Below, piece by piece: positions 8,007-19,160 of a DNA stretch of 64,000 nucleotides; positions within the stretch are counted from its first letter, which is position 1; every line of letters starts with the position of its first letter. The stretch comes from Thermodesulfobium narugense DSM 14796 (GTDB taxonomy: Bacteria > Thermodesulfobiota > Thermodesulfobiia > Thermodesulfobiales > Thermodesulfobiaceae). The stretch is from positions 585,501-649,500 of the forward strand of contig NC_015499.1 in NCBI RefSeq assembly GCF_000212395.1. The letters are read 5' to 3'. Below the pieces are notes generated by a model. It was not told where the DNA came from. It saw only the letters and a list, made by a program, of their open reading frames with translations, and did no database searches. The translations under genes and the position numbers were made by a program.

Positions 8007-8390
8007 TTACTCCTTTATAAGATCTGGCCTTAATTTTGATGCCTCATTAAGAAATATATGTCTTATCTGGTTTTTTGCTTTTTTGCTGTAGCACTGTAAG
8101 AGCACTCTTATACACATTTTTGGTGCATTAGTGACATTTGTCTCTAATGCACCAAAAACTGGAGTAGATGGATATGTTTCTCTTACAAATTTTCCTGCAA
8201 ATTCAGAGTGAATATCATTAGTTACAGAGATAAAAAAGTTAACCATATCTTCTTCTTTTACATCATTTTCATTGACCATTTTGGTAACTAGCTCAATAAC
8301 CTTTTCTCTTAGCTCTTTTGGATCATCTTTTAATAAAGTGGTAGCTCCCCTAATTGCTAGCAATCTTAAATTTTCTTTATGCTCTTCCAT
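8007..8390 (-). CDS. aroH: Monofunctional chorismate mutase, AroH type
   Basis: Converts chorismate to prephenate for phenylalanine and tyrosine synthesis. The 127 residues follow the AroH (trimeric) family from end to end: AIRGATT (Arg equivalent to B. subtilis R7), FISVTNDIHSEF, ALETNV (E78), CIRVLLQ (R90) and IRHIFLNEASKLRPDL at the C-terminus. The residue matching Tyr108 is Phe, and the usual Cys before the glutamate motif is Gly. AGGAGA precedes the ATG. It stands alone, convergent with ribF and divergent from folD. Confidence 0.88.
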   Translation of the reverse strand: MEEHKENLRLLAIRGATTLLKDDPKELREKVIELVTKMVNENDVKEEDMVNFFISVTNDIHSEFAGKFVRETYPSTPVFGALETNVTNAPKMCIRVLLQCYSKKAKNQIRHIFLNEASKLRPDLIKE

Positions 8391-8499: not shown

Positions 8500-9363
8500 T
8501 TGGGTGCAATTATATTAAACGGAAAAGAAGTTGCTAGTCAATGGGAGAAAAAAAATAGTTTAAGAGTGCAAAATCTAAAAGCAAAAGGAGTAAACATCTG
8601 TCTTGCAGTAGCAAGATTCAATGACGATGAAGCGTCAAAGGTTTATGTTAGAAAGAAAGTTGCTATGTGTGAGAAGTTGGGTATAAAACCCATTCTTATA
8701 GAAGAGGAAGGTTTAGATCAGGAGAAAATAGAGAATAGAGTATCTTCTCTAAATAAAGACAAAGAAATAAATGGGATAATAGTTCAGCTACCCTTGCCTA
8801 AAGGAATTGACAAAGAGAGAGTTTTATCTTTGGTTAGTCCTGAGAAAGATGTGGATGGCCTAAACGTTTTTTCATGTGGCTTGCTATATAAAAACATGCC
8901 TGGTTTGAGACCTTGTACTCCAAGTGGAATAATTCACCTATTGAAAGAATACAAAATCGATCTTGTTGGAAAAAGAGCCGTAATTCTTGGTAGAAGCCAA
9001 CTTGTTGGCCTTCCAATTTTTTTGATGCTTTTGCATGAAAATGCTACACCAACAATTGTACATTCTAAAACTAAAGACCTAAAGAATATTTGTAAAGAAG
9101 CAGACATATTAATTGTTGCTACTGGAAGGGCAAAAATGGTAAATAGAGAATATGTAAAAGAAGGTGCAGTAGTAGTTGATGTAGGAATATCCAGGATAGA
9201 AGGTAAAATAGTTGGAGATGTTGATTTTGAGGATGTTTTTGACGTTGCTGGTTATCTCACTCCAGTACCGGGTGGAGTTGGGCCTTTAACTATTATGTCT
9301 TTGATGGAAAATGTAATTAACGCAGCTTCTATTCAAGCAGGTATAAAAGATGACGCTTTTTAG
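8500..9363 (+). CDS. folD: Bifunctional methylenetetrahydrofolate dehydrogenase / cyclohydrolase FolD
   Basis: Interconverts methylene-, methenyl- and formyl-tetrahydrofolate, supplying formyl groups for purine synthesis. Motifs include the catalytic segment SKVYVRKK (Tyr-x3-Lys), GIIVQLPLPKG, SPEKDVDGLN, TPSGIIHLL, the Rossmann motif GRSQLVGLP and the C-terminal TPVPGGVGPLTI. I prefer TTG at 8500, giving LGAIILNGKEV, because GGAGATGAT just upstream resembles the extended ribosome binding site. ATG at 8485 is in frame and would add five residues. The end overlaps hisC by 14 nt. Confidence 0.95.
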   Translation: MGAIILNGKEVASQWEKKNSLRVQNLKAKGVNICLAVARFNDDEASKVYVRKKVAMCEKLGIKPILIEEEGLDQEKIENRVSSLNKDKEINGIIVQLPLPKGIDKERVLSLVSPEKDVDGLNVFSCGLLYKNMPGLRPCTPSGIIHLLKEYKIDLVGKRAVILGRSQLVGLPIFLMLLHENATPTIVHSKTKDLKNICKEADILIVATGRAKMVNREYVKEGAVVVDVGISRIEGKIVGDVDFEDVFDVAGYLTPVPGGVGPLTIMSLMENVINAASIQAGIKDDAF

Positions 9364-10399
9364 AAAAGATCTTTTAGGGATTGAGCCTTATAGGCCGGTA
9401 GAGGTTAAAGATGCGATTAGGCTTGATAGGAATGAAAGTCCATTTGATTTGCCATTGCAGGTAAAGGAAGAAATTATTAATGCTTTTTCTAGCCTTCGGT
9501 TGAATCATTATCCTGATGCATGGTGCGGTTCTGTAAAAGAGGCATTTAGTCAATACGTTGGCAAAATTAAACCTGAAGAGGTTACTGTGGGAAATGGTTG
9601 TGATGAGGTTATTCAAAATGTAATTATGGCATTTGCATTAAATAATGGTCCTGTTCTCTCCTTTTGGCCAACATTTCATACTTACCAGATAGCCTCAAGG
9701 AATTTAGGAATTGAATATATAGAAATTCCTTTAAATGAAGACTTTACTATGCCTATTGAGAAAGTAATTGATGTTGTGAAGGAAAAAAGGCCTTCAGTAA
9801 TTGTGATATGTAACCCTAATAACCCGACAGGAAACTGTTTCCCAGATGAATATATAGAAAATATAATTAATAGCACCCCAGGAATTGTCTTGATTGATGA
9901 GGTTTATTGTGAATTTAGTAAAAAAAGTTTTGTTGATAAATTTAGATTATATCCAAATGTTTTGATATTAAGAACCTTATCTAAAGCCTTTTCGGGTGCA
10001 GGAGTGAGAATGGGATTTGCTTTTGGAAATAAGTTTCTTATTGACGAGGTTGAAAAGGTAAGATTACCATATCTACTATCTCACTTTTCGCAGGTGGCAG
10101 GAAGCATTATACTTAAAAATAGTAGTCTATTTAAGTCAAATATTGACGCTATTAATGCCGAAATAAATAGAATTTACGATGGCTTATTAAAAATGGGCAT
10201 TAGAGTTTATCCTACAGAAGCTAACTTTTTATTGGCAAAATTTGATAAACCTACTAAAGATATTGTTGAAAAACTTAGAAAAAGAAAAATTTTAGTAAGG
10301 TTTTTTCCATATTTGCCTAACTTTATCAGGATTTCTGCTGGTAGAAGTTCTGATACAAATATTTTACTAAAGGAGCTTAGCAGAATATTAAATGAGTAA
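9350..10399 (+). CDS. hisC: Histidinol-phosphate aminotransferase
   Basis: PLP-dependent class I/II aminotransferase making histidinol phosphate. Visible elements are LDRNESPFDLP near residue 28, the CNPNNPTGN substrate/PLP loop, LIDEVYCEFS and the PLP lysine in LRTLSKAFSGAGVRMGF. The C-terminal region has RISAGRSSD, with the substrate-binding arginine. The 349 residues match the family. It overlaps folD at its start and the next gene (a HAD phosphatase) by 8 nt. Confidence 0.95.
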   Translation: MTLFRKDLLGIEPYRPVEVKDAIRLDRNESPFDLPLQVKEEIINAFSSLRLNHYPDAWCGSVKEAFSQYVGKIKPEEVTVGNGCDEVIQNVIMAFALNNGPVLSFWPTFHTYQIASRNLGIEYIEIPLNEDFTMPIEKVIDVVKEKRPSVIVICNPNNPTGNCFPDEYIENIINSTPGIVLIDEVYCEFSKKSFVDKFRLYPNVLILRTLSKAFSGAGVRMGFAFGNKFLIDEVEKVRLPYLLSHFSQVAGSIILKNSSLFKSNIDAINAEINRIYDGLLKMGIRVYPTEANFLLAKFDKPTKDIVEKLRKRKILVRFFPYLPNFIRISAGRSSDTNILLKELSRILNE

Positions 10400-11201
10400 C
10401 TTTATAGTCTTTGATATAGATGGAGTTTTAATACAAACTAACGGTTCTTTCGTGGAATCTACGATTAAAACCTTTGAATTTGTGAGGAATTTATTTGGTA
10501 AGAGCGCAAAATGTAACATCGAACATATTAGTTTTTTAAAGTCATTGGGGGGGTTTAATAACGATTGGGATTTGACATATGCTCTTTTGGCAGTTAGTTG
10601 GGATTATCCTACTTTTGACGAAGCAGAGTTTTTGGAAATTTTGAAAAGCTATTTTAAGAAAAATAATAAACCTCCTAAAATAGAAATTGCTTATGAATTT
10701 GTTAAGAGAATCTTTCAAGAATATTATCTTGGAGAAAAACTTTTTTTTGAGATATATTTGGAGAAGCCAAAATATATCTTTTTCAATGGATTTATTTATC
10801 AAGAGAAGCCGTTGATAAATTTTTGCAATTATTCTGTAGATAGAGAAAAAATAGGAATCTATTCTGGAAGATGTTTTAAAGAAGCTGAAGTTGCTTTGAG
10901 GGCAGTTAATCTAATTGTGCTGAATGAATTTTATTTTACTGATGATAGCGGTTTTAAAAAACCTGATCCTACCCCTCTTGAAAAGATGTTTGTTATAAAC
11001 AACTGCTCACAGATGACTTATGTAGGTGATACTTTGGATGATCTCGAACTGGTTGTAAGGGCAAGAGAAAAGGGACTACCTGTACAATTTGCAGGAGTTA
11101 AAACTGGAACCTATTCAAATCAGCTTGTTAACAAAATAGAAGGTCTTTCCTTTGCAAAAATGTATGAGAATGTAAGTGATTATTTAGATAAAGTTCTTTA
11201 G
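10392..11201 (+). CDS. HAD superfamily hydrolase in the histidine cluster
   Basis: HAD phosphatase of 269 residues with motif I DIDGVL (residues 8-13, both aspartates present), motif II around IGIYSGR, motif III Lys in GFKKPDPTP and motif IV YVGDTLDDLELV. The helical cap insert is long (about residues 20-150). It is translationally coupled to hisC and followed 70 nt later by hisB. The histidine pathway needs a histidinol-phosphate phosphatase between HisC and HisD. The short HisB here has no such domain, so this protein is a reasonable candidate. That function is inferred from context only. Confidence 0.8.
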   Translation: MSNFIVFDIDGVLIQTNGSFVESTIKTFEFVRNLFGKSAKCNIEHISFLKSLGGFNNDWDLTYALLAVSWDYPTFDEAEFLEILKSYFKKNNKPPKIEIAYEFVKRIFQEYYLGEKLFFEIYLEKPKYIFFNGFIYQEKPLINFCNYSVDREKIGIYSGRCFKEAEVALRAVNLIVLNEFYFTDDSGFKKPDPTPLEKMFVINNCSQMTYVGDTLDDLELVVRAREKGLPVQFAGVKTGTYSNQLVNKIEGLSFAKMYENVSDYLDKVL

Positions 11202-11271: not shown

Positions 11272-11880
11272 ATGGACCATGAAAGCGGGAAAAGGATAGC
11301 ACGAGTTTCAAGCATTAAAAGAAAAACTTATGAAACCGACATTGAATTAGAAATCAATATAGATGGTACAGGAGAAAATTCAATACAAACTAATATTGGT
11401 TTTTTTGATCATATGCTTTCTACTCTTTCAAAACATTCTAGTGTGGATATGAAACTAAAGTGCATAGGAGATTTAGAAGTTGATTATCATCATAGTGTTG
11501 AAGATGTAGGGATCGTTATTGGGGAAGCTTTGTTGAAGGCCTTAGGAGACAAGGTTGGTATAAAAAGATTTTCAAATGCGATTTTGCCAATGGACGATGC
11601 GTTAGTTTTGTGTGCTATAGATATTTCTGGCAGATCTTATTTTTCTTATGATGTTGAGTTTGACTCCAAAATGATAGGCAAATTCAATACTGAACTTGTA
11701 GAAGTTTTTTTCAACTCTTTGGCAATGAATTTGAAAGCAAACCTCCATTTTAAAAAGATTTCTGGATTTAATAGCCATCATATTGCAGAAGCCTGTTTTA
11801 AATCATTTGCTATATGTCTAAAAGATGCTGTAACTTTGACAAATTCAGGATCTATTCCTTCTGTTAAGGGGTGTATTTGA
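11272..11880 (+). CDS. hisB: Imidazoleglycerol-phosphate dehydratase
   Basis: Mn-dependent dehydratase of histidine synthesis, in the monofunctional form. Two repeats with metal-binding histidines are visible: GFFDHMLSTLSKHS and YHHSVEDVGI in the first, FNSHHIAEACFKSFA in the second. The N-terminus has an extra segment of about 14 residues before RVSSIKRKTYETDI. GAGAGGTAGG lies upstream of the ATG. The end abuts hisH (TGATG overlap). Confidence 0.96.
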   Translation: MDHESGKRIARVSSIKRKTYETDIELEINIDGTGENSIQTNIGFFDHMLSTLSKHSSVDMKLKCIGDLEVDYHHSVEDVGIVIGEALLKALGDKVGIKRFSNAILPMDDALVLCAIDISGRSYFSYDVEFDSKMIGKFNTELVEVFFNSLAMNLKANLHFKKISGFNSHHIAEACFKSFAICLKDAVTLTNSGSIPSVKGCI

Positions 11881-12488
11881 TGATAGGAGTCTTGTGTTAT
11901 AAAGGAGGAGGAAATTTAGGCAGTGTATTTAAAGCAATTACTTATTTGGGTTACCAATTTGAAGAAATTTGGGATCAAGAAAGTTTAAAAAAAGCTGATG
12001 CTTTAATTTTCCCTGGCCAGGGCTCTTTTGCGCAGGCAAGCAGATCTCTTAAAGAAGCTAATCTCTGGGAAGCATTAAGGGAATTTATATACTCTGGCAA
12101 ACCCTTTTTTGGAATATGTTTGGGTTTGCAAATGCTTTTTGATTATTCTGATGAATTTGGATTTACAGAAGGCTTAAAGGTTATTTCTGGCAAAGTTGTT
12201 GAGTTTCAAAAGGACTTTATAAGACCGCATCTTGGTTGGAACAAAGTTTTTAATACTTCAGACTTGAGATTTTTTAAAGATATACCTGATGATTCTTCTT
12301 TCTATTTTGTTCATTCTTATTATCCAGAAGTTTATGATCTTTCTTGTAAAAAGGGATTTGCTGAATATGTAAATAAAAGATTCGTGTGTGTTGTTGAAAA
12401 AGATAACGTGTTTGCCTGTCAATTTCACCCTGAAAAGAGTGGACGTTGGGGGCTTAAGCTCTTAGATAATTTCTTGAGTTCAATATAG
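11880..12488 (+). CDS. hisH: Imidazole glycerol phosphate synthase glutaminase subunit HisH
   Basis: Class I glutamine amidotransferase that feeds ammonia to HisF. The nucleophile is in FFGICLGLQMLF, with the triad His and Glu in CQFHPEKSG. ATG at 11880 overlaps the hisB stop and follows AAGGGG (11865-11870) by 9 nt. A GTG three codons earlier is in frame but less likely. About 202 residues, normal length. The partner gene hisF is not in this window. Confidence 0.96.
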   Translation: MIGVLCYKGGGNLGSVFKAITYLGYQFEEIWDQESLKKADALIFPGQGSFAQASRSLKEANLWEALREFIYSGKPFFGICLGLQMLFDYSDEFGFTEGLKVISGKVVEFQKDFIRPHLGWNKVFNTSDLRFFKDIPDDSSFYFVHSYYPEVYDLSCKKGFAEYVNKRFVCVVEKDNVFACQFHPEKSGRWGLKLLDNFLSSI

Positions 12489-12577
12489 TTATAAAAGTTA
12501 TAAAATAATTATTAAACAAAATTTTGCTTTTTAAATTTTATACACCAACAAGTTTATAAGTTTTTTAAGGAGGTTAA

Positions 12578-13285
12578 ATGTTTGAAATAATACCGGCAAT
12601 CGATATATATCGGGATAATGTTGTTAGACTTTATCAAGGTGATTTTGATAAAATAAAAATATATGGTAAACCTGAAGACTATTTTAATAAACTAAAATCT
12701 TCTGGGATTAATTTTGTACACATAATTGATCTGGAGGCTTCAAAAATTGGCCAATTTACTGCTTTTAACGTTCTTGAAATGGCAAAGTCTAAGGGTTTTG
12801 TCGTCCAATGGGGGGGAGGAGTAAGAAAATATGATGACGTTAAGGTTTTGGCTAAGGTGGGAGCTGATAGAATTATTATTGGAACTGTTGCTTTTACCGA
12901 TGAAGAGACTCTTAACGCGATTTTAAAAGATTTTGGAGATAAAATTCTTATCTCTTTAGATTTTAAGGATTCAAAACTTTGTTTTCATGGATGGACGACT
13001 TCGATTTCTTTAGAGTTAAAAGAGTTACAAAGAAAATTTGGGAATAGAAGTAATCTGGGTTTTTTGGTTACAGATATAAATAGAGATGGTACACTTTCAA
13101 GTCCTTCGGTAGAGTTGTTTGAGAATATTAGAAAAATATTTCCAAAACACAGATTAATAGGTGCTGGAGGAATATCAAAAAAAGAACACATTAATATTCT
13201 TGAAGAAGTTGGTTTTGATGGTGCGGTAATAGGCAAGGCATGGATGGAAGGTCATATTAAATTTTTTGATGGAAAGGTAATTTAA
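12578..13285 (+). CDS. hisA: Phosphoribosylformimino-AICAR ribotide isomerase HisA
   Basis: TIM-barrel Amadori isomerase of histidine synthesis. The N-terminal strand IIPAIDIYRDNVVRLYQGD carries the catalytic Asp. Later elements are HIIDLEASK, QWGGGVR, DRIIIGTVAF, LVTDINRDGTLSSPS with the second Asp, and IGAGGIS. Its VTDINRDGT motif and paired aspartates are shared with HisF, but RLYQGDF favours HisA. A clear AAGGAGG precedes the ATG. The 89-nt gap before it is AT-rich and may contain a promoter. purF follows after 2 nt. Confidence 0.92.
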   Translation: MFEIIPAIDIYRDNVVRLYQGDFDKIKIYGKPEDYFNKLKSSGINFVHIIDLEASKIGQFTAFNVLEMAKSKGFVVQWGGGVRKYDDVKVLAKVGADRIIIGTVAFTDEETLNAILKDFGDKILISLDFKDSKLCFHGWTTSISLELKELQRKFGNRSNLGFLVTDINRDGTLSSPSVELFENIRKIFPKHRLIGAGGISKKEHINILEEVGFDGAVIGKAWMEGHIKFFDGKVI

Positions 13286-13287
13286 TA

Positions 13288-14676
13288 ATGTGTGGAATAT
13301 TTGGAATTCTTTGTCCCTCTAGGAAAGATGTTGCTAAGCATACCTATTTTGCTTTATATTCACTTCAACATAGAGGGCAGGAAAGTTGTGGAATAGCTGC
13401 AACTGATGGAACAAGTTTGATGATACAAAGGTCTATGGGTTTAGTATCTTCTGCATTTTCTGAAAGAGAACTCCAGGAATTATATGGTTATGCTGCTCTT
13501 GGCCACGTCAGGTATTCAACAACTGGAAGGCCAAGTATAGAAAATGCGCAACCTCTAAAGATGAGATATAAAGGTGGAACCTTTGCTTTAGCTCATAATG
13601 GCAATATTGTGAATATAAAGGAACTAAGAGAACAAGTTTATAGTTTGGGCATTTCACCATATACTTCTTCAGATACTGAACTTATGGGCCACTTGATTGC
13701 CAGAAATTTTCAAGATGATTTTAAAACAACTCTTGCTAACGTGTGTAAAGGATTTATTGGCGCTTATTCTCTTGTTTTTTTAACTGAGGAAGAAATTTAT
13801 GCAGTTAGAGATCCATGGGGATTTAGGCCACTTTGCATGGGTTCATATGAAGATGGTTTTGTTGTGTCTTCTGAAACTTGTGCATTTGATATTATTGGTG
13901 CTAAATTTATCAGGGAGATTTCTCCTGGTGAAATGGTTAGAATTCACAGAAATGGTTATGAAGTGGACCAAATTTTAGAACCGCAGGGTAATTTCTTGTG
14001 TTCTTTTGAATATATATACTTTGCTAGACCTGATTCTGTAGTTATGGGAAAACGACTTTATGAGGTTAGAAAGAGGTTTGGTGAGCTTTTGGCTGAAGAA
14101 TCACCAGTGGATGCTGATATAGTAGTTAGTGTTCCTGACTCTGGTACCCCAGCTGCAATTGGTTTTGCTCAAAGGTGCAAGATACCCTTTAATGAAGTTT
14201 TTATAAAAAATAGATATGTTGGAAGGACTTTTATTCAACCTACAAAAGAGTTAAGAGAAAGAGGTGTTCGCTTAAAATTAAATCCGATTTCGGAATTGGT
14301 TAGGGGAAAAAGAGTAGTAGTTGTGGATGATTCTATTGTTCGAGGCACAACAAGTAAGGAAATTGTTAAAATGCTTTGGGAATGTGAGCCAAAAGAGATT
14401 CATTTTAGGGTAAGTTCTCCAATGGTTAGCCATCCATGCTTTTATGGCATTGATACCGCTTCAAGAGGTGAGCTTTTGGCTAGTAAAATGGATATTGAAC
14501 AGATTAGAGAATTTCTTGGCGTAAATAGCTTGGCATATCTTTCAAGAAAAAGTACTATTGAGGCTATTGGCATTGAATATCCGTGCCTTGCCTGTTTTGG
14601 AGCTGATTATCCTACTTATATACCCAGTGAGGAAGTTAGAGAAAAATATGCGCTTGAAAAAAACGAAAAGTGGTAA
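13288..14676 (+). CDS. purF: Amidophosphoribosyltransferase PurF
   Basis: First committed enzyme of purine synthesis. The N-terminal nucleophile glutaminase begins directly with MCGIFG, so no propeptide is present. The phosphoribosyltransferase domain has the PRPP loop VVVDDSIVRGTTS. Four cysteines at positions matching the [4Fe-4S] ligands of the Bacillus enzyme are visible: NFLCSFE, SHPCFYG and the pair in YPCLACFG. It is probably an iron-sulfur protein. The length of 462 is typical. It heads the run purF-M-N-H-D-E. Confidence 0.97.
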   Translation: MCGIFGILCPSRKDVAKHTYFALYSLQHRGQESCGIAATDGTSLMIQRSMGLVSSAFSERELQELYGYAALGHVRYSTTGRPSIENAQPLKMRYKGGTFALAHNGNIVNIKELREQVYSLGISPYTSSDTELMGHLIARNFQDDFKTTLANVCKGFIGAYSLVFLTEEEIYAVRDPWGFRPLCMGSYEDGFVVSSETCAFDIIGAKFIREISPGEMVRIHRNGYEVDQILEPQGNFLCSFEYIYFARPDSVVMGKRLYEVRKRFGELLAEESPVDADIVVSVPDSGTPAAIGFAQRCKIPFNEVFIKNRYVGRTFIQPTKELRERGVRLKLNPISELVRGKRVVVVDDSIVRGTTSKEIVKMLWECEPKEIHFRVSSPMVSHPCFYGIDTASRGELLASKMDIEQIREFLGVNSLAYLSRKSTIEAIGIEYPCLACFGADYPTYIPSEEVREKYALEKNEKW

Positions 14677-14739
14677 ATTTAAGATTGATCACTTTCTTAA
14701 TCATAAATTTATAATTGTTTTGTAGAAAGAAGGTGTATT

Positions 14740-15756
14740 ATGCAAGAAGAAAAACTAACATACGAAAAATCGGGAGTGAATATCGAGAGCGCGAACAAGT
14801 TTGTAAATGAAATCAAAAAGATAAGCAATAAAGCTTTTGGATCATTTTCTGAGAGTCTAGGTGATGGTTTTGCAGGTTTTTATCCTCTTGATAACTTTGG
14901 TTCTGATTTTGTTTTACTATCTTCTTGTGATGGAGTTGGAACAAAAGTTTTGGTTGCAAAAAAAGCAAACATCTGGAGTTCAATAGGTCAGGACTTGGTA
15001 GCTATGAACGTGAATGATATATTAGTGCACGGCGGAAAACCTTTATTTTTTTTAGATTATATTGCATGTTCGAAATTGGATACAAAAATTGCATTAGAAA
15101 TTGTTTCCTCCATAATTGAAGCCTTAAAACCTACTGGTGGAGTGTTATTGGGGGGAGAAACTGCTGAAATGCCAGATCTTTATAAAAAGGGTGATTGGGA
15201 CCTTTCAGGTTTTGTGGTAGGTGCTGTTAAAAGGTCCTCCCTTTTGCCAAAAAATATTAAATCAGGGAATATTTTGATTGGATTATCTTCTAATGGGGTT
15301 CATAGCAATGGTTTTTCCTTAATAAGAAGAATTATTAAAGATTATAAAATTAATATACTTAAAAGCATAACCCCAGAAGGTATTAGTTTGGCTAAAGAGC
15401 TTTTGAAACCTACTAAAATTTATTATTCAGATGTTTATCCTTTTATCGAAAAGGGCATGATTAATGGTCTTGCACACATTACAGGAGGTGGTATAGAAGG
15501 AAATTTGATTAGGATTTTACCAAAAAACGTTAAGGCAGTGATAAAAAAGGATTTTGATATACCATGGATTTTTAGATGGATTGCAGATCACGGTGTGAGT
15601 GAAGAAGAGATGTATAAGGTGTTTAATATGGGTATTGGGATGATATTGGTTGTTAGCCCTTCAAATGTAGATGAAATTTTAAGATCTTTAGGTTCAAATG
15701 CCCGAATAATAGGTAAAATTGTTCCCTCTGATGAGAGGAGAGTGGAGTTTGAATAA
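14740..15756 (+). CDS. purM: Phosphoribosylformylglycinamidine cyclo-ligase PurM
   Basis: Makes aminoimidazole ribotide from FGAM with ATP. Typical motifs are SCDGVGTKVLVA, the AMNVNDILVHGGKPLFFLDY block, LLGGETAEMPDLY, GLSSNGVHSNGFSLIR and AHITGGGIEGNL. The 338 residues are of normal length. A 63-nt gap separates it from purF and its end overlaps purN by 8 nt. Confidence 0.97.
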   Translation: MQEEKLTYEKSGVNIESANKFVNEIKKISNKAFGSFSESLGDGFAGFYPLDNFGSDFVLLSSCDGVGTKVLVAKKANIWSSIGQDLVAMNVNDILVHGGKPLFFLDYIACSKLDTKIALEIVSSIIEALKPTGGVLLGGETAEMPDLYKKGDWDLSGFVVGAVKRSSLLPKNIKSGNILIGLSSNGVHSNGFSLIRRIIKDYKINILKSITPEGISLAKELLKPTKIYYSDVYPFIEKGMINGLAHITGGGIEGNLIRILPKNVKAVIKKDFDIPWIFRWIADHGVSEEEMYKVFNMGIGMILVVSPSNVDEILRSLGSNARIIGKIVPSDERRVEFE

Positions 15757-16351
15757 GTTAAAAGTTGGAGTTTTGGCTTCTGGTAGAGGATCGAATTTTA
15801 AGGCTATTGTGCAAAAAGTTGATAGTGCTGAAGTAAAGGTATTAATAGTTGATAACCCTGGTGCAAAGGCAATAGAAATAGCTAAAGAATTTAACATTCC
15901 TTATGAAGTTGTCGATAGGAAAAAATTCAGCAATAAATTGAACTTTGAAAAAGAAATAACTAATATTTTGGACTCATATAAAGTAGAACTAATAGCTTTA
16001 GCTGGCTTTATGAGAATTTTGAGCCCTGGTTTTGTAGAACATTTTAAATGGAAAATAATGAACATACATCCCTCTCTTTTGCCCTCTTTCCCAGGTCTTA
16101 ACGCACAAAAACAGGCTCTAGATTATGGTGTAAGGGTTAGCGGTTGCACCGTTCATTTCGTTGACGCTGGAACCGATACTGGTCCAATAATTTTACAAGC
16201 TGTGGTTCCTGTGCTTGATGATGACAGCCCAGAAACTCTAGCCTCGAGAATTCTAAAGGAAGAGCACAAAATATATCCCTTTGCTATTTCACTCTTTGCT
16301 CAAAATAGACTAGTAATTGATGGAAGAAAGGTAAAAATAAAAGATATATAA
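15749..16351 (+). CDS. purN: Phosphoribosylglycinamide formyltransferase PurN
   Basis: Transfers a formyl group from 10-formyl-THF to GAR, using the folate product of FolD. Motifs are VLASGRGSNFKAI at the N-terminus, LAGFMRILSP, NIHPSLLPSFPG with the catalytic His, and GCTVHFVDAGTDTGPII with the catalytic Asp. TTG at 15749 is chosen because AGGAGA (15736-15741) ends 7 nt upstream; it overlaps the purM end. About 200 residues. Confidence 0.96.
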   Translation: MNKLKVGVLASGRGSNFKAIVQKVDSAEVKVLIVDNPGAKAIEIAKEFNIPYEVVDRKKFSNKLNFEKEITNILDSYKVELIALAGFMRILSPGFVEHFKWKIMNIHPSLLPSFPGLNAQKQALDYGVRVSGCTVHFVDAGTDTGPIILQAVVPVLDDDSPETLASRILKEEHKIYPFAISLFAQNRLVIDGRKVKIKDI

Positions 16352-16381
16352 TATGTACAATGAATTTTAAGGAGGTCTGGT

Positions 16382-17878
16382 ATGCAAAGAGCTTTAATAA
16401 GTGTTTATAACAAGAATGGTATTGAAGAATTTGCAAAAGAATTAAATAAATTAGGTTATGGTTTGCTTTCAACAGGTGGAACAGCAAAGTACCTTAAGTC
16501 CTTTGACTTTCCTGTAATTGAGGTTTCTGAATACACTCATTTCCCTGAGATTTTGGGCGGAAGAGTGAAAACTCTTCATCCAATTATTTTTGGAGGCATT
16601 TTGGCTCAAAGAGATAACCCAAATCATATACAACAAATAAAGAATTTAGACACCATAGATATTGTAGTGGTAAATCTTTATCCATTTTTGGAAACTTTGA
16701 ATAGAGGGGCTCCAATTGAGGAAATAATTGAGATGATTGATATTGGAGGAGTGGCTCTTATTAGAGCTGCTGCTAAAAATTATAAAGACGTACTTGTTTT
16801 GGTAGACCCAGATGACTATAAAAAAACTATTGAACTTTTAAGAAACAATACAATGACCCTTGAGTATAGGAAATATCTTGCTGCAAAAGCTTTTCAGCAT
16901 ACTGCCTCCTATGATTCTCATATAGCAGCATATTTTTCAGAAGATCTATTTCAGGAACAATTTACTCTTACGGGCAAGAGAATCCAGAGTCTTAGATATG
17001 GGGAAAATCCTCATCAGAAAGCTTTTCTTTATAAAACCGAAGATGGGTATCCGCTTGATGCTGAATTTTTAAGCGGAAAAGAACTTTCTTTTAATAATAT
17101 TGTGGATATAGATGCGGCTTTACGTTTTCTTTATGACTTCATAGACGAAAAGGCTGTTGTAATAATAAAGCACAATCAGGCATGCGGTTTTGCAGTTGCC
17201 GACGATCTTTTGACTGCTTATATTAAGGCATATGAAGGCGATAAAGAATCAGCTTTTGGCGGCATAGTAGCTATAAATGGTGTAGTTGATGAGGTTTTGG
17301 CTAGAGAAATTTACAAAAACTTTTATGAAGTAGTATATGCTATTGATTTTAGCGAAAAGGCCCTTGAAATTTTGCAGGAAAAAAGGAACCTTAGAATTTT
17401 GAAAGGTTCAACCAAAAGAACTAATTGGAATTATAACATAAAACAAGTTGGAGCTGGCTTTTTGCTTCAGACTGAAGACTTTTTAAAGCTAGACAACCTA
17501 GATGTGGTAACTAAGGTTAAGCCCGATGAAAAGACGATGGAAGATCTAATCTTTGCCTGGAAGTTATGCAGAAACTTTAAGTCAAATGCAATTGTTTTTG
17601 CAAAGGATGGCCAATTAGTTGGTGCTGGTGCCGGTCAGTCAAGTAGAGTGATGTCTGTTAGGATTGCAGGTATGAGAGCACAGGAAAGATCTGTAGGAGC
17701 CAGCCTTGCTTCTGATGGATTTTTCCCGTTTAAAGACTCAGTAACTCTTGCAGGAGAATATGGTATCAAAGCAATTATTCAACCGGGTGGTTCTAGAAGA
17801 GATGAAGAGGTAATTGAAGAGGCTGATAGACTTGGGATACCTATGGTATTTACTCACAGAAGACATTTCTATCACTAA
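16382..17878 (+). CDS. purH: Bifunctional AICAR transformylase / IMP cyclohydrolase PurH
   Basis: Catalyses the last two steps to IMP. The N-terminal MGS-like cyclohydrolase domain (about 1-190) has ALISVYNKNG and LSTGGTAKYL. The C-terminal transformylase has RYGENPHQKA, the KHNQACGFA motif with Lys-His, and the terminal QPGGSRRDEEVIEEAD. AAGGAGG precedes the ATG. The length of 498 is normal. Confidence 0.97.
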   Translation: MQRALISVYNKNGIEEFAKELNKLGYGLLSTGGTAKYLKSFDFPVIEVSEYTHFPEILGGRVKTLHPIIFGGILAQRDNPNHIQQIKNLDTIDIVVVNLYPFLETLNRGAPIEEIIEMIDIGGVALIRAAAKNYKDVLVLVDPDDYKKTIELLRNNTMTLEYRKYLAAKAFQHTASYDSHIAAYFSEDLFQEQFTLTGKRIQSLRYGENPHQKAFLYKTEDGYPLDAEFLSGKELSFNNIVDIDAALRFLYDFIDEKAVVIIKHNQACGFAVADDLLTAYIKAYEGDKESAFGGIVAINGVVDEVLAREIYKNFYEVVYAIDFSEKALEILQEKRNLRILKGSTKRTNWNYNIKQVGAGFLLQTEDFLKLDNLDVVTKVKPDEKTMEDLIFAWKLCRNFKSNAIVFAKDGQLVGAGAGQSSRVMSVRIAGMRAQERSVGASLASDGFFPFKDSVTLAGEYGIKAIIQPGGSRRDEEVIEEADRLGIPMVFTHRRHFYH

Positions 17879-17927
17879 ATTTAAAAGATCTCTTAAAAGA
17901 ACTAATTAATTTAATTGGGAGGTATAT

Positions 17928-19160
17928 GTGGGTTCTATTTTAGTTATTGGTAGTGGAGCAAGAGAACACGCAATTGCCTGGCGTCTTAAAAAGGAGGGAA
18001 AAGATGTTTTTCTTTCTCCAGGAAATGGCGGTACATCTTTAAGCTGGATAAATAAGATTCTTTCAAAAGATGATATAGAATCTTTTTGTAGAGTTACAGG
18101 AGTAGATCTTATAGTTGTAGGTCCTGAAAAACCACTTACCGAGGGAATTGCTGATTTTTTGAGATCAAAAGGTTTTTGGGTTTTTGGACCTGGCAAGGAA
18201 GGTGCAAAGTTAGAAGGGAGTAAAGTTTTTGCAAAGTCTTTTATGAAGAGAAATAACCTTCCAACTGCTGACTTTGTTATATATGAAGATGAAGGTTCTT
18301 TGATAAAGCACTTTGATAATTGTAAGTATCCTGTTGTTATAAAGGCTGATGGTCTTGCAGCGGGAAAAGGAGTGGTAGTAGTTCATGAAAAGGAAGAAGC
18401 TGTTGAGGCAATAAATTTTTTAAAAAATAATTTTCCTGAAGCCTCAAAATACATAATTGTAGAAGAGTGTCTGGTGGGGAAAGAATTGTCTCTTTTTGTA
18501 TTGATCAACGATAAAGATCATGTGGTTTTGGATAATGCAAGAGATTATAAGAGGTTAAACGACTTTGATGAAGGTCCAAATACAGGGGGTATGGGATCTT
18601 ATTCGCCAGTCGATGATCTGCCTGAATTTCAAATTAATAAAATTCAAAACAATATTGTTGAACCTACAATCAGAGCCTTGAGAAAAGAGAATATTTCTTA
18701 TCAAGGAGTTTTATATTTTGGAATAATGTTGACAAAAGAAGGCCCATCAATTTTAGAATTCAATTGTAGATTTGGCGACCCTGAAGCCCAGGTACTTGTT
18801 CCAAGAATTCTTAACTTTTCCGAGCTTCTTTATGCTGTAGCAAAAAATGAAAGAATACCTGAACCAAAGATTTCAAATAAAAAAGCCCTTTCAGTAGTTT
18901 TAGCTGCCAAGGGATACCCAAACAATCCTGAAGTAGGAAAAATGATAAATATAGATGGAAAAATTTTTGAGGATGAGGATGTTGCAATTTTTTATGCGGG
19001 GGTAACGAGAGATAAAAACAATCTTTTTACTTCTTCTGGAAGGGTTTTGAACGTAGTAGGTATGGGAAATACCTTTGAAGAAGCAAGAAATAAGGCATAT
19101 AACTCGATTAAGTATATAAATTTCGAAGGTATGCATTTTAGGAGGGACATAGGTTTATGA
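17928..19160 (+). CDS. purD: Phosphoribosylamine-glycine ligase PurD
   Basis: ATP-grasp ligase joining glycine to phosphoribosylamine. The N-domain opens ILVIGSGAREHAIAW. The ATP-grasp core has VIKADGLAAGKGVVVV, DYKRLNDFDEGPNTGGMGS and EFNCRFGDPEAQ. The GTG start at 17928 follows GGGAGG. It overlaps purE by 4 nt. Order purH-D-E resembles Bacillus, but purQ, purL, purS, purC, purB and purK are not in this window. Confidence 0.97.
   Translation: MGSILVIGSGAREHAIAWRLKKEGKDVFLSPGNGGTSLSWINKILSKDDIESFCRVTGVDLIVVGPEKPLTEGIADFLRSKGFWVFGPGKEGAKLEGSKVFAKSFMKRNNLPTADFVIYEDEGSLIKHFDNCKYPVVIKADGLAAGKGVVVVHEKEEAVEAINFLKNNFPEASKYIIVEECLVGKELSLFVLINDKDHVVLDNARDYKRLNDFDEGPNTGGMGSYSPVDDLPEFQINKIQNNIVEPTIRALRKENISYQGVLYFGIMLTKEGPSILEFNCRFGDPEAQVLVPRILNFSELLYAVAKNERIPEPKISNKKALSVVLAAKGYPNNPEVGKMINIDGKIFEDEDVAIFYAGVTRDKNNLFTSSGRVLNVVGMGNTFEEARNKAYNSIKYINFEGMHFRRDIGL

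Follow-up and report, generated by a model that had tools for sequence, protein, structure and literature searches.

The histidinol-phosphate phosphatases (HolPases) on record are, according to the available part of PMC5516325, of the HisB N-domain, PHP and IMPase types, together with a monofunctional archaeal HAD enzyme that is named there for Thermococcus onnurineus. A further HolPase, the HAD-IB protein NMV_1317 of Neisseria meningitidis, is presented in the accessible text of PMC7606547 as the filler of a pathway gap, and in a paper on coral histidine synthesis the step was given to a protein matched to the fission-yeast histidinol-phosphatase. In the available portion of the GapMind study (PMC7311316), HolPase was the low-confidence step met most often, affecting 42 of the 148 microbes growing without amino acids. 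Transposon mutants in HVO_0431 of Haloferax volcanii, itself labelled a HAD hydrolase, were histidine auxotrophs (two identical insertion clones; PMC4300041), and a later review put HVO_0431 forward for the histidinol-phosphatase gap (PMC8305020), both as given in the accessible parts of these papers.

We analysed a 64,000-nucleotide stretch of the Thermodesulfobium narugense genome (the window), in which a HAD gene lies among his genes. The first-pass annotation had put this gene forward as a candidate HolPase gene, a reading that was supported by the lack of any rival PHP- or IMPase-type match over cut-off in the genome, by linkage of the family to his genes in ten phyla, by HisC-HAD fusions and by the auxotrophy of the Haloferax mutants. 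The gene very probably encodes the bacterium's HolPase (EC 3.1.3.15), an enzyme of the HAD-IA C1-cap type; we put the probability of this reading at roughly 0.88. No HolPase assignment was found for bacterial members of the family or for the HisC-HAD fusion in the literature searched, which fell short of most subscription papers.

The his cluster and the HAD protein

The genes of the cluster are as follows.

9350-10399, forward strand: hisC, histidinol-phosphate aminotransferase, which makes the proposed HAD substrate (TIGR01141, 291 bits, above the cut-off of 276.6)
10392-11201, forward strand: HAD phosphatase, putative HolPase (open reading frame and translation, 269 aa)
11272-11880, forward strand: hisB, dehydratase only, 202 aa (NF002111, 267 bits, above the cut-off of 231; Pfam IGPD alone)
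11871-12488, forward strand: hisH, glutaminase subunit of IGP synthase (TIGR01855, 187 bits, above the cut-off of 105)
12578-13285, forward strand: hisA (TIGR00007, 191 bits, the top family though below the cut-off of 229)

As the first-pass annotation had stated, the HAD gene starts within the end of hisC; the overlap is 8 nt and includes the hisC stop codon. Because the HAD gene overlaps the gene of the enzyme that makes its proposed substrate, the two are probably co-expressed. A spacing of 70 nt separates the HAD open reading frame from hisB, and hisH and hisA come next. HisB had been described as monofunctional, and its 202 residues indeed match the dehydratase domain alone in Pfam, without the N-terminal HolPase domain of the E. 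coli type. The hisD gene is located at genome position 678169-679344, beyond the window end at 649500.

Two further features of the neighbourhood were observed. A purine cluster comprising purF, purM, purN, purH and purD, all scoring over their cut-offs, directly follows the his genes (window 11272-19160), so that a pathway releasing AICAR is joined to one using it. In addition, ribF and folD flank a lone monofunctional AroH-type chorismate mutase gene (8007-8390; 107 bits, over cut-off), which is encoded on the reverse strand.

The window protein is a HAD superfamily phosphatase with a C1 cap, of subfamily IA. This assignment is based on the order of its motifs, on matches over cut-off to Pfam HAD_2 and to NCBIfam TIGR01549 (HAD-IA), and on a predicted fold matching HAD-IA structures. 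The motifs are listed below with their conservation in an alignment of 98 rows, in which the window protein was entered twice and some near-copies were included.

10413-10427, forward strand: HAD motif I, DIDGV, residues 8-12, with the nucleophile and the acid/base Asp (both Asp in 98 of 98 rows)
10548-10571, forward strand: cap signature GGFNNDWD, residues 53-60, putative substrate-binding segment (D58 in 98, W59 in 97 and N56 in 96 of 98 rows)
10857-10871, forward strand: HAD motif II region, residues 156-160, with Ser158 (Ser or Thr at 158 in 98 of 98 rows)
10959-10964, forward strand: HAD motif III, Lys190-Pro191 (98 of 98 rows)
11025-11042, forward strand: HAD motif IV, GDTLDD, residues 212-217 (D213 in 97 and D217 in 98 of 98 rows)

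Motif II reads SGR at residues 158-160, and with DIDGV, KP and GDTLDD also intact, all four HAD motifs are kept, as had been claimed. The five catalytic positions (8, 10, 158, 190 and 213) were conserved in 96 of 97 aligned family sequences. Gly133 (97 of 98 rows) and Glu138 (93 of 98, with Asp in five) are other near-invariant residues of the cap. Some variation was seen at motif I, where DxDNV replaces DxDGV in Omnitrophota copies (L100, L109, L113, L136 and others); Asn occupies the motif I Gly position in 11 of the 98 rows.

The roles of the catalytic residues are established HAD chemistry. In the proposed reaction Asp8 would attack the phosphate of L-histidinol phosphate and Asp10 would serve as acid/base, while Ser158 and Lys190 would hold the phosphate and Asp213 and Asp217 of motif IV would contribute to Mg2+ binding. 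The cap is expected to close over the site, and with its N-N-D-W stretch it may bind the imidazole and amino groups of the substrate.

The top named family for the window protein was TIGR01548 (HAD-SF-IA-hyp1, uncharacterised), which matched residues 5-223 with 71.1 bits against a cut-off of 140.2. As this score is below the cut-off, we term the protein a diverged relative of TIGR01548, not a member. The N-[ND]-D-W cap signature is common to the window protein and to relatives that pass the cut-off, among them those of Halobellus (L075, 220.6 bits) and Gottesmanbacteria (L087, 141.3 bits); as a family criterion the signature is our own and not that of NCBI. In the literature searched, no mention of TIGR01548 was found outside work on Phytophthora. 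The cap had been called unusually long, which is correct only in part. It does span 147 residues between D10 and S158, which is more than the 197-position TIGR01548 model, itself without assigned function, allows; yet the majority of the stand-alone relatives exceed the window protein in length, with 287-385 aa in the main and 251-253 aa in a few.

At E ≤ 1 the window protein matched six NCBIfam families. Neither the HisB N-domain models (TIGR01261/TIGR01656) nor GmhB was among them, in agreement with the earlier statement that the protein is not a DDDD-type HisB N-domain, and the PHP-type model TIGR01856 was likewise absent. No HAD-IB model was found among the six, a comparison made with family models. 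With respect to the IMPase type (TIGR02067), the window protein matched HAD models alone in both NCBIfam and Pfam. Judged by family models, the HAD family differs from the HisB N-domain, PHP and IMPase types. The E. coli HisB N-domain (HAD-IIIA, DDDD) belongs to the same superfamily and catalyses the reaction proposed here, but the window protein matches no such model. Two other HolPases were compared by description alone: NMV_1317 shares the HAD superfamily but is of type IB, whereas the best models of the window protein are of type IA, and the T. onnurineus enzyme, reportedly of the DDDD type, is also a stand-alone HAD protein but an archaeal one.

An AlphaFold model, for which the window protein was combined with 38 relatives, had a mean pLDDT of 93.8. 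The nearest folds were 6iah (Z 24.0, rmsd 2.5 over 228 residues) and 1qyi (Z 21.4), and the next reached 17.4. The structure 6iah, of Tt82 from Thermococcus thioreducens, was also closest in sequence among solved structures (E 7e-13, 27% identity), but Tt82 lacks the exact cap signature, with GDDF in the aligned positions. The paper on a T. thioreducens HAD phosphatase, which we take to describe 6iah, speaks in its title of 'diverse substrate specificity'. The second nearest fold, 1qyi, is an unannotated structural-genomics protein (Q8NW41) with a related cap stretch.

Other phosphatases of the genome

The first-pass annotation had suggested a genome search for PHP-type (TIGR01856) and HisN-type (TIGR02067) phosphatases, and on the single contig of 1,898,865 bases this gave no match over cut-off. 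The best TIGR01856 match, in a 582-aa frame, scored 30.9 bits against a cut-off of 90.2. A PHP protein of 223 aa was considered and rejected as a clear HolPase: it scored 22.8 bits with TIGR01856, and its best model was a CehA/McbA metallohydrolase, under cut-off.

An IMPase is encoded at C1:951516-952265. It scored 191.7 bits as SuhB (cut-off 332) and 167.7 as HisN (TIGR02067, cut-off 275), and its RRPGAAAQDL stretch resembles the SuhB signature and differs from the HolPase motif 5 given in the available text of PMC5516325. With a higher SuhB than HisN score and a SuhB-like motif, it was rejected as a clear HolPase. A HAD-IIIA protein at C1:175930-176349 (L006 and L030 of the window's genome, G000) passed the broad TIGR01656 cut-off; it scored 137 bits as GmhB (cut-off 178) and 87 as a HisB N-domain (cut-off 140). 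Since GmhB was its best model and it was under the HisB N-domain cut-off, it too was rejected as a clear HolPase. Its gene adjoins APS-kinase and glycosyltransferase genes with a flagellin gene nearby, and possibly has a role in flagellin glycosylation. Apart from the HAD-IIIA protein's own HisB N-domain match, no his gene was found in the 12-13 kb around either gene.

These proteins bear on a different account, in which the HolPase of this genome is a SuhB-like IMPase, a GmhB-like HAD-IIIA or a HAD-IB phosphatase, and the HAD protein encoded among the his genes has a side role. Both the IMPase and the HAD-IIIA protein do exist, the latter above the TIGR01656 cut-off, and HAD-IB HolPases are known from NMV_1317 while our genome search covered types other than HAD-IB. 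We nevertheless regard this account as improbable: the IMPase is the better SuhB, the HAD-IIIA protein the better GmhB with neighbours of another kind, neither lies near his genes, and the operon linkage of the HAD family and its fusion to HisC would be left unexplained.

Operon linkage, HisC fusions and co-occurrence

The order hisC-HAD-hisB-hisH-hisA was found in the window's genome and in all three other searched genomes of the genus, and in those three it extends to folD-hisC-HAD-hisB-hisH-hisA-purF (purF being partly visible in G001). In a first survey the HAD protein was matched in nine of 60 genomes, four of them from this genus. Three of the five matching genomes outside the genus, all three from distant bacteria, had the HAD gene beside his genes, in the orders hisG-D-C-HAD-B-H-A-F (G057), hisD-HAD-hisB-hisA-hisF (G018) and hisC-HAD (G049); no his neighbour was present in G009, on a contig of 6.6 kb, or in G029. 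When 336 genomes were searched with a profile, 76 had a match at E ≤ 1e-4; in many of these the match was confined to the C-terminal HAD core, and the full-length relatives were in the top rows. In six genomes (G317, G266, G130, G064, G159 and G038) a single frame encodes HisC followed by HAD, with hisB next. The his-linked fusion of G064 (L056) carries Asn at the position of the metal-binding Asp213, so its HAD part may be inactive, or misaligned at this position.

Named genomes were scanned with the cap-motif pattern, which yielded 154 confirmed relatives, and the best 80 of these were used. In 30 of these 80 loci the HAD was fused to a his gene or lay within 200 bp of one on the same strand, a lower bound because many loci are draft contigs with short flanks. 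Linked copies came from ten phyla: Atribacterota, Armatimonadota, Abditibacteriota, Chloroflexota, Acidobacteriota, Myxococcota, Pseudomonadota, Bacillota, Gottesmaniibacteriota and Microgenomatota. The 50 loci unlinked by the 200-bp rule include 20 from haloarchaea, the rest coming from Omnitrophota and Chloroflexota among others; the Omnitrophota copies with DxDNV in motif I all fall outside the 200-bp limit. The further relatives L048, L049, L053 and L063 had no his neighbour within their short loci. Five fusions, two from Marinicella and three from Halobacteroidaceae, were found among the best 80 of 154, and HisC-HAD fusions were found in 11 genomes in total, of which G130 and G266 belong to the same genus. 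Domain scans of one Marinicella and one Halobacteroidaceae fusion gave HisC followed by TIGR01548, with 232 bits (cut-off 277) and 125 bits (cut-off 140) respectively for Marinicella, and 297 and 136 bits against the same cut-offs for Halobacteroidaceae.

A quick tree was computed without outgroup and without L081, L119, L137 and L048, in which the motif was not matched. Linked and fused copies occurred in most parts of this tree, within which a single clade held the 20 haloarchaeal copies. The clade of the window protein was on a long branch (2.16), and the identity of this protein to its relatives is 24-31%. As it also scores at half the TIGR01548 cut-off, its function is carried over from relatives at that level of identity. 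Spread of the family on plasmids or viruses was considered and rejected, with no family match in the plasmid collection and no confirmed match in viral contigs.

As controls, generic HAD matches were examined for a his neighbour within 1.5 kb. There was none for four matches from other genomes (L057, L059, L060 and L061) or for two paralogs in the window's genome (L007 and L008). TIGR01548 matches at E ≤ 0.01 were obtained in 13 of 14 control genomes including H. volcanii, two of them over cut-off, which we count as weak support. The genus-wide order and the his operons elsewhere confirm that the placement of the HAD gene in the his cluster exceeds chance. A general housekeeping HAD-IA phosphatase of the phosphoglycolate type, in the operon by chance, would be in keeping with a fold and sequence within the HAD-IA group, but is scarcely credible given that members of the family recur in his operons when the generic controls do not, that the cap signature is conserved in 96-98 of 98 rows, and that the window protein scored 14.8 bits as phosphoglycolate phosphatase (cut-off 180) and 22.4 as PpaX (cut-off 218).

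Co-occurrence was examined in 193 genomes. Nineteen were hand-picked as HAD-positive on matches to both the N-terminal and the C-terminal halves of profile A1, and genomes with C-terminal matches alone were scored as negative. HisD was present in 18 of the 19 HAD-positive and 112 of the 174 HAD-negative genomes (p 0.008). Among the HisD-containing genomes, a PHP- or IMPase-type HolPase was found in one of 18 with the HAD protein and 48 of 112 without it (Fisher p 0.0016), with the PHP type called at its cut-off and the HisN type at E ≤ 1e-60 (21 genomes), which is looser than the curated cut-off (seven genomes). The contrast remained when HAD-positive genomes were collapsed by genus (1/14, p 0.009) and when HisN was called at the curated cut-off (1/18 against 38/112, p 0.013). 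For PHP alone the figures were 1/18 and 31/112 (p 0.04), non-significant after collapsing (1/14 against 31/112, p 0.12), and for HisN alone 0/18 and 18/112, also non-significant (p 0.075). The exception is G049 (L026), with a hisC-linked HAD gene and a PHP-type match over cut-off. In 11 genomes reached from the named loci, one PHP match over cut-off was found, in a 718-aa frame of an Acidobacteria genome (L118). HAD, PHP and IMPase types were all absent from 64 of the 130 HisD-containing genomes, HisB N-domain and HAD-IB enzymes being outside this survey.

HAD-IA enzymes are often promiscuous, and the HAD protein could instead act on a related compound, for example in the repair or overflow of pathway intermediates or of nucleotides linked to AICAR. 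The adjacency of his and pur genes in the window, with purine genes after hisA, would suit such a role, as would the diverse substrates in the title of the 6iah paper. This is nonetheless very unlikely: the HAD occurs in fusion with HisC, the enzyme that produces histidinol phosphate, known HolPases are rarer where the HAD is present, and the HVO_0431 mutant is, in the accessible account, a histidine auxotroph.

Haloarchaeal relatives and the extent of the family

A strong HAD match (E < 1e-30) was found in 277 of 293 relatives of a Halomarina genome, which we take to be haloarchaea. HisD was present in 284 of them, 12 of which had no strong HAD match, and five of the nine HisD-negative genomes did have one. 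The HAD protein was thus absent from 16 genomes, HisD from nine and both from four (Fisher p 6e-4).

No hisC lay beside the HAD gene in any of the 20 haloarchaeal loci. In five of six Halobellus loci, motif patterns revealed npdG and hisE after the HAD gene, from which they are separated by a gap of roughly 430-720 nt. The last two genes were near the HAD gene in six of the 20 loci, the five from Halobellus and one from Halococcaceae (L128), and family models confirmed the assignment of one hisE and two npdG genes. Haloferax is placed in the same family as Halobellus, and npdG of Haloferax volcanii is HVO_0433 in the available text of PMC8305020. Given this gene order, the haloarchaeal HAD very probably corresponds to HVO_0431, an identification made by gene order rather than from the Haloferax sequence; the gap would leave space for HVO_0432. 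Disruption of HVO_0431 blocks histidine synthesis, as in the accessible report. A haloarchaeal member of the family is already proposed in print as HolPase, in the passage of the review cited above.

It is likely that HAD-IA proteins with the N-[ND]-D-W cap form another, very widespread class of HolPase, found in haloarchaea and at least ten bacterial phyla, with a bifunctional HisC-HAD protein for steps 7 and 8 in several lineages, and that they account for part of the many genomes in which the pathway has its gap at this step. The short signature motif, the operon linkage and the HisC fusion make part of the HolPase gap directly testable. If the assignment is true, it would provide a function for TIGR01548 and for the HAD gene of most of the haloarchaeal genomes searched, and a HAD-IA HolPase family would offer a starting point for understanding the structural orphans 6iah and 1qyi.

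In the Halomarina locus (L071:5852-6622) a PHP-family protein, with 59.9 bits to TIGR01856 and so under cut-off, is encoded at a distance of some 1.4 kb from HAD.
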